This document shows, piece after piece, positions 1 to 11,703 of a DNA stretch of 64,000 nt. Source of the stretch: Paracoccus versutus. Its GTDB lineage: Bacteria; Pseudomonadota; Alphaproteobacteria; Rhodobacterales; Rhodobacteraceae. The notes under the pieces are model-generated. The model was not told the DNA's origin. It saw only the letters and a program-made list of their open reading frames with translations, and ran no database searches. The position numbers were made by a program, and so were the translations under genes. Numbering within the stretch: position 1 is the stretch's first letter; each line of letters starts with the position of its first letter. The DNA lies in assembly GCF_000763885.1 (NCBI RefSeq), contig NZ_JRKO01000002.1, positions 1-64,000 of the forward strand, written 5' to 3'.

Positions 1-1207
1 GGTCGGCGGCCAGCGGCGGGCCGGGGGTTTCGGCGCGTTCGGGGACATGGCTTTCGCGCGGCAGCGGGCGGCTGATCGCAGCCGTGCCGAAGCGCGCCGC
101 CAGCCGGTCCACCAGCCGCGCCAGCGCCAGCCCCTGGGGCGCGGCGCCGTCCAGGCCGGGCTGGGCCTGGGCCAGCGGCTCGACCGCCTCGGCGGCCAGC
201 CGGATCAGGTCGAAGCCATAGCCGGGGTCCAGCCGCTCCAGCCGGCCGTCGAACAGGCGCAGCAGGTGGCCGGGATCGCGCGTGGGCGCAGCCATGGCGA
301 CGCGGATGTCGCGCCGCTCGCCATCGACGCGAAAGACCGACAGGCACAGCCGCCGGCAGCCGCGATCCGCCGCCGCCATCTGCGCGCAAAGCGCCTCCAG
401 CAAGCCGGGCAGCCAGTCGGATGGGTCCATCACCGGCTCGGCCAGCCGGGCCTCGGCGCTGTATTCGGGCTCGGGCTCGGGCGCGTCCAGCGGTTCGGCC
501 GCCCGCCCCAGCGCCTGGTCGAGCCGGACCAGCGGGTTGTCCTGCGGCAGGGCGCGGGCAAAGCGGCGCATCAGCGACAGGCGCGGAATGGCGGCCAGGT
601 CGCCGATGGTCCTTAGCCCCAGCCGGCGCAAGAGCAGCAGGGTCTCGTCCGACAGCCGCAGCCCCGCGACCGGCAGCGGCGCTAGCGCCGGCAGCGGATC
701 GGTGCAGATCGCGCGCTCGGGGCCAAGGCGGGCCAGCGCCCAGGCCGCGCCGCGCGTCGGCGCCAGCGCCAGCCCGGCCGTCAGCCCGGCGCGGGCGAAG
801 CCGGCCTGGATCTGGGCCAGCATCGCCGCCTCGCCGCCGAACAGATGCGCGGCGCCGGTGGTGTCGAGGACGATGCCGTCATCGCCGTCGGGCGTGCTGT
901 ATGGCCCCCAGCGTCGCGCCCAGAAGGCCAGCCGCGCCAGCCTGGCCGCGTCGCGGTCGGGCTCGGCCGGCTCGATGCGCAATGCGGGGCAGATGGCGCG
1001 GCAATCCACGGCGCGGGCGCCGATCCGGGCGCCCGCCTGCTCGGCGGCCCGGTTCGCGGCATGGATCACGGGCCCATGCGGGCCGGGCGCGGCCAGGGCC
1101 AGCGGGATCTCGTCAGGCCAGGCGTCGCCCCGGCGCGCGGCCCGGCTCTGCCAGCTCTCGATCGCGAGGCGGGGCAGAGAAATCGAGACGATCCGCCGCC
1201 CGGTCAT
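1..1207 (-). CDS. imuB: Y-family DNA polymerase-like mutasome protein ImuB (partial)
   Basis: About 402 residues are visible, and the C-terminal part runs off the left edge of the window. The protein opens with a beta strand followed by PRLAIESW, where active Y-family polymerases carry their first catalytic acidic motif. This loss of the acidic residues is typical of ImuB, which acts as a beta-clamp-binding scaffold in SOS mutagenesis with ImuA and DnaE2. The segment GIVLDTTGAAHLFGGE (around residues 130-145) and the later helix-hairpin-helix-like LRLSDETLLLLRRLGLRTIG region fit the family. The ATG lies inside the 3' end of imuA (95-bp overlap), so the two are co-transcribed. dnaE2 would be expected further left, outside the window. 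Confidence 0.88.
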   Translation of the reverse strand, partial: MTGRRIVSISLPRLAIESWQSRAARRGDAWPDEIPLALAAPGPHGPVIHAANRAAEQAGARIGARAVDCRAICPALRIEPAEPDRDAARLARLAFWARRWGPYSTPDGDDGIVLDTTGAAHLFGGEAAMLAQIQAGFARAGLTAGLALAPTRGAAWALARLGPERAICTDPLPALAPLPVAGLRLSDETLLLLRRLGLRTIGDLAAIPRLSLMRRFARALPQDNPLVRLDQALGRAAEPLDAPEPEPEYSAEARLAEPVMDPSDWLPGLLEALCAQMAAADRGCRRLCLSVFRVDGERRDIRVAMAAPTRDPGHLLRLFDGRLERLDPGYGFDLIRLAAEAVEPLAQAQPGLDGAAPQGLALARLVDRLAARFGTAAISRPLPRESHVPERAETPGPPLAAD

Positions 1208-1790
1208 GGCGCGCCACCCAGGTCGAGGGGGGCCGGCCGCGCGCCCGGAACAGTTCCGCCAGCCAGCGCGGCTCGCCCGGCGCCTGCGGGTCGTCCGGGT
1301 CGGGGACCGAGGGCAGCGGCGCCAGCCGCCAGCGCATCCGCGCCGCGCTGGGTTCGGGCCGGGCGGCATGGCGGATCAGCCAGCAGGGCAGGCCCGCCGC
1401 CTCGGCCCGCAGCGCAAGGCGGCGGCTGGCGGTAAAGCTCAGCGCCGGGGCGGGGCCATGGATCTCGCCCACCACGGCGGCAAGGGCGCGGCCTTGCAGC
1501 CCGTCCTCCAGCGCGGCCAGCACATCGGCGGGGCGCGTCAGGTCCAGCCGCAGCAGATCGCGGCCCATGCCGGGCAGGAAGGGGGCGCCGAACTCGGCCC
1601 GGCTCAGCCGGTCCTGCGCCCAAAGCACCAGCCCCGGCGGCAGGGCGGCCAGGACGAATCCAGGCGCCGCCCCCGCCAGCGGACGGGTGCCGAAGGCTTC
1701 GGACAGGGTCGGCGCGGTCGGCTGCGGCGCCGCGGGGACTGGCGCCCGTCCGAAAGGCGCCACCCCGGATGGGAAAGGGCGAGCGGACAT
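1113..1790 (-). CDS. imuA: SOS mutasome protein ImuA (RecA/SulA-like)
   Basis: This is a 225-residue protein of the ImuA family. These RecA-fold-like proteins lack RecA activity and work with ImuB and the error-prone polymerase DnaE2 in damage-induced mutagenesis. The identification rests on its position directly upstream of imuB, its size, and family-like segments such as LSRAEFGAPFLPGMG and GEIHGPAPALSFTASRR. I chose the ATG at 1790; a TTG twelve bases upstream would add four residues. A LexA-type box lies 15 bp before the ATG. No strong Shine-Dalgarno is visible. The family is poorly conserved, so single-protein recognition is weaker than the context. Confidence 0.82.
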   Translation of the reverse strand: MSARPFPSGVAPFGRAPVPAAPQPTAPTLSEAFGTRPLAGAAPGFVLAALPPGLVLWAQDRLSRAEFGAPFLPGMGRDLLRLDLTRPADVLAALEDGLQGRALAAVVGEIHGPAPALSFTASRRLALRAEAAGLPCWLIRHAARPEPSAARMRWRLAPLPSVPDPDDPQAPGEPRWLAELFRARGRPPSTWVARHDRAADRLDFSAPPRDRELAEPGRAPGRRLA

Positions 1791-1805: not shown

Positions 1806-1820
1806 GTTCCTGATTTGTTC
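1806..1820 (-). promoter_or_regulatory. LexA (SOS) box GTTC-N7-GTTC
   Basis: A perfect direct repeat GTTC, seven bases (ctgattt), GTTC lies 15 bp upstream of the imuA ATG. This is the established alphaproteobacterial LexA recognition pattern. The site sits in the divergent region shared with the small-protein/ku operon, about 100 bp from that operon's start. It could in principle influence both directions, but its position fits repression of imuAB best. Confidence 0.85.
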
Positions 1821-1839: not shown

Positions 1840-1922
1840 TCGTCAATCCGGCCGCGCCAGGGAACATTGCACCGCCAGCGCGGTTGAGACCCCTGACGCC
1901 AGAGATGCAGGAGGAAAGCACC

Positions 1923-2201
1923 ATGGCCCATGCAAGCCGCAAGAAATTCGGGGCAGGGCAGCAGGATCAGGGCAAGGGCGACGCCTCGGGCGGCATGACC
2001 CCCGGCACGGCCGAGAACCTGCCCGAGAACGAGGTTCTGTCCAACCGCGACACCGCGCGGCATTCGCAGCAGCGCGGGCTAGACAGCCGGCATGTGCAGA
2101 ACCAGCAGCACCACGACCACGCCGGCAACCGCGAGCACGCGGAGGGGGACGACCTGCCCGACCGCCGCCCGGATGACGGGCCCATCCGCGACGAACCCTG
2201 A
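1923..2201 (+). CDS. Small hydrophilic protein translationally coupled to Ku
   Basis: This 92-residue protein has a strong AGGAGGAAAG ribosome-binding site seven bases before the ATG. It has no membrane segment, signal peptide or cysteine. It is rich in Gly, Gln, Asn, Asp, His and Arg, so it is probably disordered, and it is acidic at the C-terminus. The central stretch ENEVLSNRDTARHSQQRGLD followed by VQNQQHHDHAGNR looks like the conserved core. I recall similar small hypothetical proteins in alphaproteobacteria but could not check this. Its TGA overlaps the ATG of ku (TGATG), which indicates coupled translation. Its function is unknown; a role with Ku/LigD is inferred from position only. 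Confidence 0.75.
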   Translation: MAHASRKKFGAGQQDQGKGDASGGMTPGTAENLPENEVLSNRDTARHSQQRGLDSRHVQNQQHHDHAGNREHAEGDDLPDRRPDDGPIRDEP

Positions 2202-3007
2202 TGGCGCCGCGTTCCTTCTGGAAGGGCTATCTGAAGCTGTCGCTGGTCACTTGCCCGGTGTCGATGATGCCGGCCACCGGCGAGGGCGAGAAGCTGCGCT
2301 TCCACACGCTCAACGCCCGCACCGGCAACCGCGTCGTCAGCCGCTATGTCGATGCCGAGACCGGCAAGCCCGTGGCCGAGGAGGACGAGGTCAAGGGCTA
2401 TCCCCGCGGCGAGGACGACCACGTGCTGCTGGAGGATGACGAGATCGCCTCGGTGGCGCTGGAAAGCGCCCGCACCATCGACATCGACATGTTCGTGCCG
2501 GCCGATTCGATCGGCTGGATCTGGTATGACAAGCCGCATTACCTGGTGCCGGACGATCCCATCGGCGAGGAAGCCTATGGCGTGATCCGCGACGCCATGG
2601 GCGCGACCGGGACGGTGGGCATCTCGCGGCTGGTGCTTTACCGCCGCGAGCGCGCGGTGATGCTGGAGCCGCGCGACAAGGGCATCGTGCTGTGGACCCT
2701 GCGCTATGGCGACGAGGTGCGGCCCGAGGCGGATTACTTCGACCGGATCGGCGACGAAAAGGTCGATGCCGGGCTGCTGAAGCTGGTCACGCGGCTGATC
2801 GAGGAGCGCAGCGTGCCCTGGGAGCCCTCGCTGGTGGCCGATCCGGTGCAGGAGAAGCTTCTGGACATCATCGCGGCCAAGACCAAGGGACGCAAGCGCG
2901 CGGCCAGGGCGAAGCCCGAGGCGCCGGCCACGGCGGGCAATGTCATCAACATCATGGAGGCGCTGAAGAAAAGCATCGCCTCGGAAAGCAAGCCCAGGCG
3001 GCGCTAG
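2201..3007 (+). CDS. ku: Non-homologous end-joining protein Ku
   Basis: This 268-residue bacterial Ku forms a homodimeric ring that binds DNA double-strand ends and recruits LigD. The typical N-terminus (FWKGYLKLSLVTCPV, residues 6-20) is followed by the Ku core to about residue 220. The C-terminus is basic (KTKGRKRAARAK, and a final SKPRRR), which in other Ku proteins contributes to DNA threading and LigD stimulation. The start overlaps the stop of the upstream small gene. The TAG stop overlaps the stop of the convergent ligD in a shared CTAG. The length is usual for the family. Confidence 0.96.
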   Translation: MAPRSFWKGYLKLSLVTCPVSMMPATGEGEKLRFHTLNARTGNRVVSRYVDAETGKPVAEEDEVKGYPRGEDDHVLLEDDEIASVALESARTIDIDMFVPADSIGWIWYDKPHYLVPDDPIGEEAYGVIRDAMGATGTVGISRLVLYRRERAVMLEPRDKGIVLWTLRYGDEVRPEADYFDRIGDEKVDAGLLKLVTRLIEERSVPWEPSLVADPVQEKLLDIIAAKTKGRKRAARAKPEAPATAGNVINIMEALKKSIASESKPRRR

Positions 3008-5547
3008 CCGGCCTTCCGGCGGCGGCTGCGCGGCGCCTCGAGCGGTGCGGCGGCGGCGCGGAACCCGTCCCAGGGGTCCGAGCCCAGCGTGGCCAGCCGC
3101 GTCGGCATGTTCTGCAGGGTGAACCAGGCCGGGCCGATGCCGGCGTCCAGCTCGTCCCAGCGCAGCGGGGCCGAGACGGCGGCGCCGGGCCGGGCGCGGG
3201 TGGAATAGGCGGCGACGGCTGTCGCGCCGCGCTGGTTGCGCAGATAGTCGATCAGGATCCTGCCCCGCCGCCGCGCCTTGCTGATGGTCGAGACATAGCG
3301 GCCGGGATCGTCGGCGGCCATGGCATCGGCCAGTGCCTTGGTGAAGGCCTTGACCGCCGGCCATTCCGCCTGCGGGCGCAGGGGCGCGACCACATGCAGC
3401 CCCTTGCCGCCCGAGGTCTTGACGAAACCGGCAAGGCCGTGATCCTCGAGCCGCCGGCGCAACTCCCGCGCCGCCTCGACCACCAGCGGCCAGGCGACGC
3501 CTTCGCCGGGGTCGAGGTCCATGGTGATCATGTCCGGCCGTTCCCAATCGGCGGCGGTCGCGCCCCAGGGGTGGATCTCCAGCGCGGCCGATTGCACCAG
3601 CCCCATCAGCCCGTCCAGATCCTCGATGCCGATCAGCGGCTCGCCCTGCGGCTCCTTGGGATCGCGCAGCAGCGAGATATGCGGGTTCAGCCCCTTCCAG
3701 GCGTGCTTCTGGAAGAACCGCTCGCCGTCGATGCCGTTCGGGCAGCGCAGCAGCGCCAGCGGCCGGCCGGTGATCCAGGGCGCGATCCAGCGCCAGACCT
3801 CGGCATGGTAATCGGCAAGCCCTTCCTTGGTCACGCCTTCCTCGGGCCAATAGAGCCGGTCGGGATGGGTCAGCCGCACCCGCCGCCGCTGCGGCGCCGG
3901 GTGTTTCGCGGCAGGCTTCGCGGTTTCGCGCACGATCTCGGCCGCGGGCTTGTCCTCGCGCAGGCCGCGGAAGGCGGCGTGGCGCAGGTGGCCGTCGGCG
4001 GTCCAGGCGCGGAACTCGACCTCGGCCACCAGTTCGGGGCGGACATAGCGGGCCTGCCGCGCCTCGTCGGCGGTCAGGCGGGCGGCAAAGGGGCTGTCGG
4101 GGATGCGCATCCGCTCCAGCCGGCGGAACAGATCCTCGGCCACGGCGGCGGAAAAGCCGGTGCCGACGCGGCCGACATGCTGCAAGCCGCCCTGTTCGTA
4201 AACGCCCAGGATCAGCGAGCCGATGGCGCGGCGCGACACCGAGGAGGGGACATAGCCCGCGACCACGAATTCCTGCCGGGCCGAGCATTTCGACTTGATC
4301 CAGGCCCGGCCGCGCCCGGCGCGATAGGGGCCGTCGCGCAGCTTCGACACGATCCCCTCGAGGCTCAGCCGGCAGGCATGGCGCAGGACCAGTGCGCCGC
4401 CTTCGTCGAAATGGGTGCTGAACCGCAGGATGCCGCCTTCCTGGCCCAGAAGCCGGGCGAGCAGCGCCTTGCGCTCGACCAGCGGCACCCTGCACAGGTC
4501 GTATCCGTCCAGATAAAGCAGGTCGAAGGCGTAGAAGGCGAAGCGGTCGGATCGCCCGGCGCTGAGATCGGCCTGCAGGGCCGAGAAATCCGAGGCGCCG
4601 GCATCGGTCTCGACCACCAATTCGCCATCCAGGATGGCCGTGCCCACGGGCAGGTCGCGCAGGGCGGCGGGCACGGCCTTGCCGAAGCGCGTCGTCCAGT
4701 CCAGCCCGCTGCGGGTCAGAAGCTTGACCCGCCCCGCCTCGATCCGCGCTTGCAGGCGGTAGCCGTCGAACTTGATCTCGTGCAGCCAGCGTTCGCCCTG
4801 CGGGGCGGCCGAGGCCAGCGTGGCCAGCATCGGCTCGACGAAACCCGGCATCGCCGCCTTGCGCGCGCCCTTGACCGCCGCCGGTTCGGGCGGCTCGGGG
4901 TCCGGCTCCGGCGCGGCCCTGGGCTTTTTCGCCCGCCCGGCCGGCTTGCGGATGCGCCCGGTCTTCGAGGACCAGCCCGGCGCCTCGCCCGCGACATCGG
5001 CGATCTGCCGGCCGGTCTTGACCGATTCCGGCCGCTCGTCGAGGATGTCGGGCGCGTCCTTTGTCCGGGCGAATTCGTCCTCGCCCTTGATCAGCAGCCA
5101 GTTCTCGCGCTTTTCGCGCGGCTTGCCGCGCATGCGGACCAGATGCCAGCGGCCATGCAGCTTTTCGCCATGAAGGGTGAATTCCAGATGGCCCTTGGCA
5201 TAGCCCTGATGCGGATCGCCGACCGGCGTCCAGGTGCCGCGGTCCCACAGGATGACGGTGCCGCCGCCATATTCGCCCTTTGGGATGGTGCCCTCGAAAT
5301 CGCCATATTCCAACGGGTGGTTCTCGACATGCACCGCCAGGCGCTTTTCGTCGGGCACCAGGCTGGGCCCCTTGGCGACGGCCCAGCTTTTCAGCACCCC
5401 GTCCAGCTCCAGCCGGAAATCGTAATGCAGCCGCGTCGCCGCATGTTTCTGGACCACGAAGGCGTCGCCGCCCTTGCGGATGCGCCCGCCCTTGGGTTCC
5501 GGCGTCGCGGCGAAATCGCGTTTCTTGCGATAGGTCTCCAGCGCCAT
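3004..5547 (-). CDS. ligD: Multifunctional NHEJ DNA ligase LigD
   Basis: This 847-residue ATP-dependent ligase of bacterial end joining has all three modules. The 3'-phosphoesterase domain spans about residues 35-185 (HYDFRLELDG, then FEGTIPKGEYGGG). A charged Pro/Glu/Lys linker follows. The ligase domain has the adenylation motif EIKFDGYR with nucleophile Lys259, then an OB fold. The C-terminal primase/polymerase domain covers about residues 560-830 and contains the metal-binding ITMDLDPGEG. The order phosphoesterase-ligase-polymerase is the Pseudomonas-like arrangement. It faces ku tail to tail with overlapping stop codons, so the two partners are transcribed separately. About 460 bp of non-coding DNA precede it. 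Confidence 0.96.
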   Translation of the reverse strand: MALETYRKKRDFAATPEPKGGRIRKGGDAFVVQKHAATRLHYDFRLELDGVLKSWAVAKGPSLVPDEKRLAVHVENHPLEYGDFEGTIPKGEYGGGTVILWDRGTWTPVGDPHQGYAKGHLEFTLHGEKLHGRWHLVRMRGKPREKRENWLLIKGEDEFARTKDAPDILDERPESVKTGRQIADVAGEAPGWSSKTGRIRKPAGRAKKPRAAPEPDPEPPEPAAVKGARKAAMPGFVEPMLATLASAAPQGERWLHEIKFDGYRLQARIEAGRVKLLTRSGLDWTTRFGKAVPAALRDLPVGTAILDGELVVETDAGASDFSALQADLSAGRSDRFAFYAFDLLYLDGYDLCRVPLVERKALLARLLGQEGGILRFSTHFDEGGALVLRHACRLSLEGIVSKLRDGPYRAGRGRAWIKSKCSARQEFVVAGYVPSSVSRRAIGSLILGVYEQGGLQHVGRVGTGFSAAVAEDLFRRLERMRIPDSPFAARLTADEARQARYVRPELVAEVEFRAWTADGHLRHAAFRGLREDKPAAEIVRETAKPAAKHPAPQRRRVRLTHPDRLYWPEEGVTKEGLADYHAEVWRWIAPWITGRPLALLRCPNGIDGERFFQKHAWKGLNPHISLLRDPKEPQGEPLIGIEDLDGLMGLVQSAALEIHPWGATAADWERPDMITMDLDPGEGVAWPLVVEAARELRRRLEDHGLAGFVKTSGGKGLHVVAPLRPQAEWPAVKAFTKALADAMAADDPGRYVSTISKARRRGRILIDYLRNQRGATAVAAYSTRARPGAAVSAPLRWDELDAGIGPAWFTLQNMPTRLATLGSDPWDGFRAAAAPLEAPRSRRRKAG

Positions 5548-8851: not shown

Positions 8852-9457
8852 TCACTCCTCGACCGTCACCTTGACCATGTAGTCGGGCTCGACCACCGCG
8901 CCATTGGCGGCCGGGTCGCCCTTCTTGATCGCGTTCAGCACGTCCCAGCCGTCGACCAGCTGGCCGACCACGGTATATTGCCCGTCCAGGAAGGTCGCCG
9001 GCGCCAGGTCGATGAAGAACTGGCTGTTGGCGCTGTTGGGATCCTGCGCCCGCGCCATGCCCACGGTGCCGGCCTGGAAGCTGACATCGTTGAACTCGGC
9101 CGCCAGGTCCGGCATGTTCGAGCCGCCCATGCCCGCCCGCGCGGTATCGCTGCCGTGCTTGCCGAATTCGACATCGCCGGTCTGGGCCATGAAGCCGTCG
9201 ATCACGCGATGGAACACCACCCCGTCATAGGCGCCCGATTTCGCCAGCGTCACCAGGCGCTCGACATGGTTCGGCGCCTTGTCGTTGTAAAGGTCCAGCA
9301 CGATCCGGCCCTTGGCGGCGCCCTTGGAATCGGCCACCTCGATCACCAGGTTCGGGCCCGGCCCGTCGGTGACGCCCGGCAGGCCCTCGGCCAGGACGGG
9401 ATGGGCGGCGGCGCCGGCGGCCAGCACCAGGGCGGGAACCAGCAGCTTATTCCACAT
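8852..9457 (-). CDS. ppiA: Exported cyclophilin-type peptidyl-prolyl isomerase
   Basis: This is a 201-residue cyclophilin with a cleavable signal peptide (hydrophobic LLVPALVLAAGAAAHPVLA, predicted cut after ALA), so it should act in the periplasm on prolyl bonds of exported proteins. The isomerase core includes FHRVIDGFMAQTGD and NSANSQFFIDLAP, carrying the catalytic-region Arg, Phe, Met and Gln residues of the family. The ATG at 9457 lies inside the 3' end of ppiB (11-base overlap), implying coupled translation; a TTG at 9466 is the alternative start. It looks like a diverged tandem duplicate of its neighbour with an added export signal. Confidence 0.93.
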   Translation of the reverse strand: MWNKLLVPALVLAAGAAAHPVLAEGLPGVTDGPGPNLVIEVADSKGAAKGRIVLDLYNDKAPNHVERLVTLAKSGAYDGVVFHRVIDGFMAQTGDVEFGKHGSDTARAGMGGSNMPDLAAEFNDVSFQAGTVGMARAQDPNSANSQFFIDLAPATFLDGQYTVVGQLVDGWDVLNAIKKGDPAANGAVVEPDYMVKVTVEE

Positions 9458-9956
9458 CGGCCGCAACCTTCACCGAGATCATCCGGTCGGGATTCGCCGG
9501 CGGCTCGCCGCGGGCGATCTTGTCGACATGCTCCATGCCCTCGATGACCCGGCCATAGACGGTATACTGGCCGTTCAGGAAATGGTTGTCCTTGAAATTG
9601 ATGAAGAACTGGCTGTTGGCCGAGTTCGGGTTCATCGAGCGCGCCGCGCCCAGCGTGCCGCGGTCATGCGGCAGGCGCGAGAACTCGGCCGGCAGGTCCG
9701 GCAGGTCCGAGCCGCCGGTGCCGGCGCGGCCCGGATTGTAGTTGTTCTCCATGTTGGCATGTTCCACGTCGCCGGTCTGGGCCATGAAGCCCTCGATCAC
9801 GCGGTGGAAGGCCACGTTGTCGTATTTCCCGGCGCGGGCCAGTTCCTTCATGCGCTCGGCATGTTTCGGCGCCACGTCGGGCAGCAGCTCGATCACCACC
9901 GGGCCGTCCTTCAGCTCGATGATGACCGTGTTCTCGGGATCCTTGATCTCGGCCAT
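9447..9956 (-). CDS. ppiB: Cytoplasmic cyclophilin-type peptidyl-prolyl isomerase
   Basis: This 169-residue cyclophilin has no signal peptide. It catalyses cis-trans isomerisation of prolyl bonds in the cytoplasm. The signature segments are FHRVIEGFMAQTGD (about residues 50-63), NSANSQFFINF and YTVYGRVIEGM. AGAAGGAGA precedes the ATG. It is the first gene of a two-gene operon with ppiA, and it is divergent from pgk with 179 bp between the start codons. The arrangement gives the cell matched cytoplasmic and periplasmic enzymes from one transcript. Confidence 0.95.
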   Translation of the reverse strand: MAEIKDPENTVIIELKDGPVVIELLPDVAPKHAERMKELARAGKYDNVAFHRVIEGFMAQTGDVEHANMENNYNPGRAGTGGSDLPDLPAEFSRLPHDRGTLGAARSMNPNSANSQFFINFKDNHFLNGQYTVYGRVIEGMEHVDKIARGEPPANPDRMISVKVAADVE

Positions 9957-10135
9957 GGGGGGTCTCCTTCTGATGGCTTGGGCAAAGGCATAAGCGTTTC
10001 GCCCCGCCCAGACAACGCCCGCCGGCGCCGCGCGTTTCGCCGCATGCCCGGCTTCTGCCGCCGGTTGACGAAAATGTCATGATGCGGGAAAACCCCGGCG
10101 GGGGACGGTCAGCCCAACATGAAAGGGACATGAGC

Positions 10136-11332
10136 ATGGCGGATTTCAACACGATCGACGACCTGGAGCTTGACGGCAAGGTGGTGCTTGTCCGCGTGGA
10201 CGTGAACGTCCCGGTCGAAAACGGCCAGGTCAGCGATGCCACGCGGATCGAAAAGATCGTGCCCACCGTCAAGGACATCCAGGCCAAGGGCGGCATCCCG
10301 GTGCTGCTGGCGCATTTCGACCGCCCCAAGGGCAAGCGCGTGGACAGCATGAGCCTGAAGGTGGTGGTGCCCTCGCTCGAGCGCGCCCTGGGCCAGGAGG
10401 TCAAGTTCGCGGACGAGGCCATCGGCGGGCCGGCCAAGCGCGCCGTGGCCGACCTGAAGCCGGGCGATGTCCTGCTCTTGGAAAACACCCGCTTCTATCC
10501 GGGCGAGGAAACCAACGACGCGACCTGCGCCGCCTCGCTGGCCGCCCTGGGCCAGGTCTATGTCAACGACGCCTTCTCGGCCGCGCATCGGGCGCATGCC
10601 TCGACCGAAGGGATCGCGCGGCTCCTGCCCGCCGCGGCCGGCCGGCTGATGGAGGCGGAGCTGAAGGCGCTGGACGCCGCGCTCGGCAATCCGCAGCGCC
10701 CGGTCGCGGCCGTGGTCGGCGGCGCCAAGGTCTCGACCAAGCTCGACCTGCTCGGCAACCTGATCGAGAAGGTGGACCACCTGGTCATCGGCGGCGGCAT
10801 GGCCAACACCTTCCTGGTCGCCCAGGGCATCGAGGTCGGCAAGTCGCTGGCCGAGCGCGACATGGCCGATACCGCGCGCGAGATCATGGCCAAGGCGGAA
10901 AAGACCGGCTGCACCATCCACCTGCCGGTGGACGTGGTGGTGGCGCGCGAATTCAAGGCCGGCGCCGACAGCGAGACGGTGGCGGCGGACGCCTGCCCGG
11001 CGGACGCGATGATCCTGGACGCCGGCGCCGCCACGGTGGCGAAGATCCGCGAGGTCTTCGAGGCCAGCCGCACGCTGATCTGGAACGGCCCGCTCGGCGC
11101 CTTCGAGATCCCGCCCTTCGATGCCGCGACCAATGCCGCGGCGCAAGAGGCGGCGCGGCTGACCCGCGAGGGCAAGCTGATCTCGGTCGCCGGCGGCGGC
11201 GATACGGTGGCGGCGCTGAACAAGGCCGGGGTCTCGGGCGATTTCACCTTCATCTCGACCGCGGGCGGCGCCTTCCTGGAATGGATGGAGGGCAAGGAAT
11301 TGCCCGGCGTGGCGGCCCTGCAAAAGCGCTGA
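10136..11332 (+). CDS. pgk: Phosphoglycerate kinase
   Basis: This 398-residue enzyme interconverts 1,3-bisphosphoglycerate + ADP and 3-phosphoglycerate + ATP in glycolysis and the Calvin cycle. The N-terminal substrate domain shows the [14 protein letters not shown] signature. The nucleotide domain has [10 protein letters not shown] and the C-terminal [14 protein letters not shown] chose the ATG at 10136 because GAAAGGGA lies seven bases upstream; the ATG at 10130 is only one base from that site. fbaB follows downstream, so two glycolytic/gluconeogenic genes lie together, separated by one small gene on the opposite strand. Confidence 0.97.
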
Positions 11333-11352
11333 GCCCTGCCTGACGGGCTGCG

Positions 11353-11376
11353 AAAGGGCCCTTTGCGGGGCCTTTT
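11353..11376 (+). terminator. Probable intrinsic terminator of pgk
   Basis: AAAGGGCCC and GGGGCCTTT form a stem with one internal G-G mismatch, followed by TTTT, 20 bases after the pgk stop. Confidence 0.5.
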
Positions 11377-11390
11377 CCGCCCGGAAATCT

Positions 11391-11426
11391 TGGGCCTTAA
11401 ATCCTGGGCCTTAAATCCTGGGCCTT
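11391..11426 (+). repeat. 14-bp tandem repeat, 2.6 copies
   Basis: The unit TGGGCCTTAAATCC occurs twice perfectly (11391-11404 and 11405-11418) and then as a partial third copy, TGGGCCTT (11419-11426). It lies between the pgk terminator and the 3' end of the convergent small gene. It resembles a slippage-prone microrepeat, not a CRISPR. Confidence 0.8.
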
Positions 11427-11487
11427 GCCGGATTGGCGCATCCGCGTCGGCGGCAGGGGGCACGGATGCGTCCCCTGCCGGCTGCGG

Positions 11488-11703
11488 TCAGTTCCCCTCG
11501 GCCGGCGCGGCTTCGCCGGCCGGCACGACCGGCGCGGTCGCGGCGGGCGGCGCATTGCGCGAGACGTCGCGCGAGTCGGTGTCGAGGAACAGGATGTAGA
11601 GAAAGGCCCCGATCGAGACCACGAAGGCCAGTCCCAGCACCAGGAAGAAGGGCCGGTTCTGGCGGATCTGTTCGGGAATGCCGTCGGGGCCTTCGTTCGC
11701 CAT
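11488..11703 (-). CDS. Small single-pass membrane protein, unknown function
   Basis: This 71-residue protein has one clear transmembrane segment (PFFLVLGLAFVVSIGAFLYI, about residues 18-37). A charged N-terminal tail (GPDGIPEQIRQN) comes before it and an Ala/Pro-rich C-terminal tail after it. GGGGGGAA precedes the ATG. Codon use matches the neighbours. It is divergent from fbaB and convergent with pgk. I do not recognise the family. Confidence 0.72.
   Translation of the reverse strand: MANEGPDGIPEQIRQNRPFFLVLGLAFVVSIGAFLYILFLDTDSRDVSRNAPPAATAPVVPAGEAAPAEGN

Follow-up and report, generated by a model that had tools for sequence, protein, structure and literature searches.

The 92-codon ORF that precedes ku in the Paracoccus versutus DNA analysed here probably belongs, as a copy linked to ku, to a family of general-stress proteins of alphaproteobacteria that are small, rich in glycine and probably disordered. 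With about the same, moderate confidence, we propose that a general-stress, hydrophilin-like gene has turned into the promoter-proximal translational leader of ku. The small protein is probably not a dedicated repair protein. The locus lies in a 64,000-nt stretch, the whole of which is called the window below, and its features are collected in Table 1. A strong ribosome-binding site and a TGATG overlap with ku, both pointed out in an earlier sequence-only reading of this DNA, are present, and the anti-Shine-Dalgarno pairing predicted for the small ORF is -10.3 kcal/mol. The frame of the divergent imuA-like gene is open to 1802, and the counterpart annotated in P. ferrooxidans starts at the base equivalent to 1790.

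Table 1. Features around the small ORF and ku in the window.
Feature	Coordinates	Strand	Remarks
imuA-like gene	1113..1790	-	divergent from the small ORF; weak NF033429 match (E 0.003, 17.5 bits vs cut-off 150)
Presumed LexA-type box, GTTC-N7-GTTC	1806..1820	+	flanked by the imuA-like gene and the EcfG motif
EcfG-type general-stress promoter motif	1861..1885	+	-35 GGAAC 1861-1865, 17 nt, -10 GTT 1883-1885
Shine-Dalgarno AGGAGG of the 92-codon ORF	1909..1914	+	8 nt 5' of ATG 1923
Gene of the 92-aa, probably hydrophilin-like small protein	1923..2201	+	ATG 1923, TGA 2199-2201, stop codon included
TGATG stop-start overlap of small ORF and ku	2199..2203	+	ku ATG at 2201
ku (non-homologous end joining Ku)	2201..3007	+	TIGR02772, 281 bits vs cut-off 150
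ligD (DNA ligase D)	3004..5547	-	Pfam/NCBIfam scan; convergent with ku

On sequence grounds, the ORF is more than a chance reading frame, because it has matches in 22 other genomes of the genus and dN/dS ratios of 0.19-0.53 (21 pairs of seven members). Judged by these ratios it is under purifying selection; the ranges of coupled and uncoupled copies overlap, and the four intact coupled copies compared gave 0.19-0.47. A protein search (E up to 0.01) retrieved the small protein from 23 of the 61 genus genomes, 22 of them besides the window's own, at 93 to 51% identity, and a profile search of the same 61 genomes recovered the same 23 carriers. Matches were obtained in 5 of 248 genomes at the level of the wider taxonomic family and in 7 of 337 at class level, the own genome included each time, in scans that capped how many candidates were scored in each genome and in which absence weighs little. 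A scan of species genomes confirmed 150 stretches as relatives. The best 80 of these 150, termed the named loci, come from Paracoccus, Rubellimicrobium, Methylobacterium/Methylorubrum, Rhizobium, Mesorhizobium and others; in some, one flank is shorter than 6 kb, and the set overlaps the 61 genus genomes, so that counts from the two are not independent. Four candidates were dropped before counting: L002 (own genome, contig C4, E 0.057) and L025 (E 0.0016), which had no family match in tblastn, L029 (E 6e-4), the frame of which did not look like that of a family member, and L089 (E 6e-5).

The conserved-looking core noticed beforehand is borne out by seven residues (L39, N41, R42, D43, R51, G52 and D54) that are invariant in both a 25-member and a 55-member alignment. 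In the latter, composed of the window protein and 54 of the best 80 of the 150 relatives, the invariant columns also include M1, G10, G17, K18 and G23. Searched against Pfam and NCBIfam, the window protein gave nothing above a curated cut-off (best NCBIfam E 0.16), and 25 members (window plus 24 relatives) gave a single Pfam match, at E 0.088 and below its cut-off. The Pfam and NCBIfam names that surfaced for the small protein were rejected as chance-level hits below the cut-offs. A conserved, uncharacterised alphaproteobacterial family, with 150 relatives confirmed in one species-genome scan, is defined and open to direct study.

Hydrophilins and LEA-like proteins are defined by more than 6% glycine, strong hydrophilicity and disorder. 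The window protein had been described as hydrophilic and probably disordered, and the values agree: its GRAVY is -1.64, glycine accounts for 12% of its residues and its charge-hydropathy value of -0.115 falls on the disordered side, while disorder is also predicted by AlphaFold2 (55 sequences; mean pLDDT 59.6, pTM 0.17), which placed one low-confidence helix at residues 41-51. With hydrophilicity set here at GRAVY below -1, we found both GRAVY < -1 and Gly > 6% in 78 of the best 80 of the 150 relatives. As a control, the same cut-offs were applied to the 576 genes called in the loci; 47 passed, and 40 of these 47, by our reading of the list, belong to the small-protein family itself or to c2, c3 or c11. 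The labels c2 (about 65 aa) and c3 (about 85 aa) were coined here for two small hydrophilic families. According to these predictions the small protein is probably disordered and hydrophilin-like, hydrophilin being a class by composition that proves no function. In glycine content, GRAVY and predicted disorder it resembles hydrophilins and LEA-like protectants, but differs in having no Pfam or NCBIfam match above cut-off.

The promoter region connects the family to general stress control. PMC3892343 and PMC7083833 give the EcfG consensus as GGAAC-N16-CGTT, and the latter reports that the -10 element is flexible (PMC7083833). The window motif begins 62 nt before the ATG, and its -10 element reads GGTT, not CGTT. 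We found GGAAC-N15-19-GTT within 200 bp upstream of 28 of 31 family members, against a mean of 0.37 and a maximum of 3 of 31 in 300 dinucleotide-preserving shuffles. The three members missed (L085, L086 and L088) represent one genus; a DUF3008 gene was called directly upstream in two of them, and the upstream region of the third looks alike. Among the best 80 of the 150 relatives' loci, the motif was present within 250 bp in 44, comprising all 26 from Paracoccus, all 6 from Rubellimicrobium and 1 of 29 from Methylobacterium/Methylorubrum. It was absent within that distance in the other 36, 28 of which are from Methylobacterium/Methylorubrum, where the small gene may be second in an operon. An EcfG-type motif also lies within 150 bp of 66 of the 513 called genes in the loci studied, a figure that is no neutral background because the loci were picked around, and include, the small-protein family. 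The regulators are present as well: the anti-sigma factor NepR was found in 60 of the 61 genus genomes, and in the window genome PhyR (PhyR_sigma2 plus receiver), an ECF sigma factor and a HisKA_2 kinase are encoded around nepR.

Similar motifs precede ku genes that are not coupled to the small ORF. They occur within 320 bp upstream of 34 of the 62 distinct ku genes surveyed, and within 130 bp of 14 of the 20 uncoupled ku genes that are at least 50% identical to the window ku (19 from the genus and one from Xaviernesmea); ku itself is therefore likely a general-stress target. Two published studies describe EcfG dependence of ku in Sphingomonas melonis (PMC6599016) and of ku-ligD in Sphingopyxis granuli (PMC7083833). 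The Paracoccus system is like the alphaproteobacterial general stress response (PhyR-NepR-sigma EcfG) in its promoter motif, in the regulators carried by the genome and in having ku as a target. It differs from the regulon of the two sphingomonads in that the window ku has no motif of its own directly upstream and stands behind a small stress gene, joined to it by TGATG. The window genome holds a second ku (G000:C98:10220-10972), which has its own EcfG-type motif 60 nt upstream. As for the R. etli homologue, a partial, presumed locus tag had no match in the main text of the EcfG regulon paper, whose gene tables sit in the supplements.

Adjacency to ku is confined to part of the family. The small gene adjoins ku in 4 of the 23 genus carriers, namely the window genome (G000), G058, G059 and G011. 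Among the best 80 of the 150 relatives' loci, ku lies within 6 kb in three: Paracoccus sp. MKU1 and P. thiocyanatus, both coupled, and Xaviernesmea oryzae, where it is uncoupled and about 1.4 kb from the small gene. One Rhizobium locus has a ligase-domain match to LigD about 5 kb away. P. versutus UW1, P. versutus DSM 17099 and P. ferrooxidans each carry a further coupled unit on a large replicon, and all eight units examined (window, G058, G059, G011, P. thiocyanatus and these three replicons) have the TGATG coupling. Across the genus, ku was detected at E 1e-10 in 38 of 61 genomes, in 37 of them above the family cut-off. It was present in 19 of the 23 carriers of the small protein vs 19 of the 38 non-carriers (Fisher p 0.014); in the remaining four carriers (G020, G039, G041 and G047) there was no ku at E 1e-10. 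A shared stress lifestyle would account for this modest association as well as a functional link would.

Other neighbours are more regular. Tblastn counts, preferred here in view of the short genes that the ORF caller misses, placed c2 and/or c3 downstream on the same strand within 1.5 kb in 16 of 19 uncoupled genus loci, in none of the 4 coupled ones and in none of 8 outside the genus. One or both were within 1.5 kb downstream in 22 of the 26 named Paracoccus loci and in 23 of the best 80 of the 150 relatives' loci overall. In the coupled clade, ku occupies the position held elsewhere by c2-c3. Outside the genus, the Rhizobium etli copy adjoins treZ and malQ, and the Actibacterium copy has a Mn-catalase gene on one side and an SDR gene on the other, SOD and otsB being close by.

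In the coupled units, the two reading frames differ in their initiation signals. Pairing energies were computed with a generic anti-Shine-Dalgarno string. The small ORF gave -10.3 kcal/mol in G058, G059 and G011 as in the window, and -8.9 kcal/mol in P. thiocyanatus. The ku genes of these five units gave, as a set, +0.1, +0.1, +0.1, -1.7 and -3.0 kcal/mol, the window ku itself standing at +0.1, vs a median of -7.05 kcal/mol for 60 other ku genes. Rank tests returned p 0.0003 against the 60 others and p 0.0035 against 20 close relatives, values that do not come from independent genes because the five coupled ku genes form one clade. Pairing weaker than -3.0 kcal/mol was also seen in 5 of the 60 uncoupled ku genes (-2.7, -2.4, -2.2, -0.5 and +0.3) and in 13 of the 59 genes called in the window. 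The weak Shine-Dalgarno sequence of coupled ku suggests that its translation probably depends on ribosomes finishing the small ORF, from which ku would be reached by reinitiation. The weak site may predate the coupling, because one uncoupled ku with a value of -0.5 (L043, genome G048) is nested within the coupled branch of the ku tree.

That branch is starred, has six rows (97/90) and unites the coupled genes with L043, which is placed among them at an unstarred support of 84/72. The four intact coupled proteins can group together in the family tree (SH-aLRT 71), the nearest other row being the uncoupled copy of P. solventivorans. On the ku tree, a single origin of the coupling is possible. 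Where they overlap ku, the coupled copies end in DEP or AEP, and their last residues (about 82-92) have no counterpart in the P. solventivorans protein, which ends earlier. G011 has the ORF in two pieces, frames of 32 and 54 codons; an ATGA joins the two, the second runs into the TGATG at ku, and the ku product matches over its full length. This is the pattern expected if translation toward ku was kept and the protein lost, in a single case where a sequencing error is possible.

The preferred sequence of events can be stated as follows. Under stress, the PhyR-NepR-EcfG switch, whose genes are present, would free sigma-EcfG, which would transcribe from the motif at 1861-1885. Ribosomes would load at the AGGAGG, terminate at the TGA ending at 2201 and reinitiate at the overlapping ku ATG, so that Ku output would be set by translation of the small ORF. 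The small protein would act alone, as a hydrophilin-like protectant in drying or osmotic stress, with Ku and LigD mending breaks. This protectant step is suggested by its composition, predicted disorder and stress-gene neighbours. The small protein and Ku/LigD would then be products of one stress programme that share no complex.

The sequence-only reading had cast the small protein as a candidate end-joining accessory protein. In that capacity it would bind to Ku, LigD or DNA ends and modulate NHEJ, the coupling holding its ratio to Ku fixed. Such a role finds some favour in the TGATG recurring in all eight units, the higher frequency of ku in carriers, the purifying selection on the ORF and the tail of about residues 82-92 missing from the P. 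solventivorans copy. However, 19 of the 23 genus carriers do not have the gene next to ku and four have no ku found, and the survey of neighbours proposed in that reading, covering ku and ligD, gave two coupled loci and one more with ku within 6 kb among the best 80 of 150. The protein is moreover split in G011 beside an intact ku, and selection on coupled and uncoupled copies falls in overlapping ranges. The claim is thus unsupported for the family, and an accessory role is unlikely for the coupled copy. Homologues scattered without Ku beside unrelated stress genes had been named in advance as counting against it, and as far as distribution goes this is largely what the ku counts, the c2/c3 neighbours and the treZ/malQ and Mn-catalase, SOD and otsB neighbourhoods present. 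A dedicated Ku partner as the function of the whole family was rejected because of the distribution across the genus and the named loci. The coupled copy could nevertheless have acquired a function tied to Ku in this single clade. A specific form of this, which we regard as quite improbable, has a stress protein recruited to end joining in the P. versutus/P. thiocyanatus clade: residues about 82-92 would make contact with Ku or LigD, or else the disordered chain would concentrate or shield broken ends in drying cells, with coupling setting the ratio.

A second alternative is that in the coupled clade the peptide itself is irrelevant and only its translation matters, as a route for ribosomes to ku. 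The stop-start overlaps that G011 retains into ku despite its broken protein are what this would produce, and the weak Shine-Dalgarno pairing of the coupled ku genes agrees with it. It is nonetheless a rather unlikely account, since the dN/dS of the four intact coupled copies places their amino-acid sequence under selection, and G011 is one case that may reflect a sequencing error.

A further candidate for control of the unit is the GTTC-N7-GTTC sequence in Table 1, which we take to be a LexA-type box. It could place the small ORF and ku under SOS control, since it occupies the gap that separates the ORF from the divergent imuA-like gene and recurs in three near-identical P. versutus/P. ferrooxidans units. 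It is, however, nearer the imuA-like gene, the EcfG motif following 40 nt downstream, and, as the single match in the 64,000-nt window, compares with 0.74 expected by chance. Among 30 family upstream regions of 400 bp, the box was found in 4, those of the window and the three near-identical relatives; the 400 bp preceding the ORF lack it in the coupled G058, G059, G011 and P. thiocyanatus and in 22 uncoupled members, as do the 320 bp preceding each of the uncoupled ku genes surveyed. SOS control of the small ORF and ku is thus unsupported and, in our judgement, highly improbable. The box most likely serves the divergent imuA-like gene, because the four other coupled units lack it. The minus strand at 2-1790 of the window encodes the imuA-like gene and a Y-family polymerase (IMS domains), with dnaE next in P. 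ferrooxidans; the arrangement looks like an SOS mutagenesis cassette back to back with a stress-controlled ku unit.

End joining under general stress control would give the Paracoccus unit a parallel in Sinorhizobium meliloti, whose stress-inducible NHEJ was reportedly placed under that control by Dupuy et al. in 2017 and 2019. We know of no small protein coupled to ku in the S. meliloti system. Among the literature matches listed, which consisted of titles and the starts of abstracts and covered few subscription papers, no paper on the coupling of this gene to ku or on the small-protein family appeared. If the preferred reading holds, general stress signalling would set Ku dosage in the coupled Paracoccus through translation of a protectant-like gene, and drying protection and break repair would be produced together. 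It also cautions against assuming that a gene sharing an operon with ku encodes a repair protein.

Other small genes stand ahead of ku elsewhere. Two, of about 25 and 80 aa and membrane-like by eye, precede it in L052, L145, L148, L149 and L157, where the last upstream stop lies 3-4 nt before ku and the ku Shine-Dalgarno pairing is -2.7 to -3.5; one example of each had no Pfam match. Another ku, in L147, has a DUF3606 gene (1171-1353, minus strand) about 110 nt upstream of it, and this gene has an EcfG-type motif. It seems that ku has been placed behind small genes more than once, which hints that the identity of the upstream gene matters less than its expression signals. The c2, c3, DUF3606 and DUF3008 proteins are, like the small protein, short, hydrophilic and found in similar neighbourhoods, but they belong to different sequence families. 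One example each of c2, c3, c11 and c17 had no Pfam match. These four families make up a recurrent Paracoccus neighbourhood of the small-protein family (L093, L095, L097, L098, L100, L101 and L103, around 9000-11500), which also contains a PAP2-like phosphatase and CO-dehydrogenase-like subunits, names assigned by eye.
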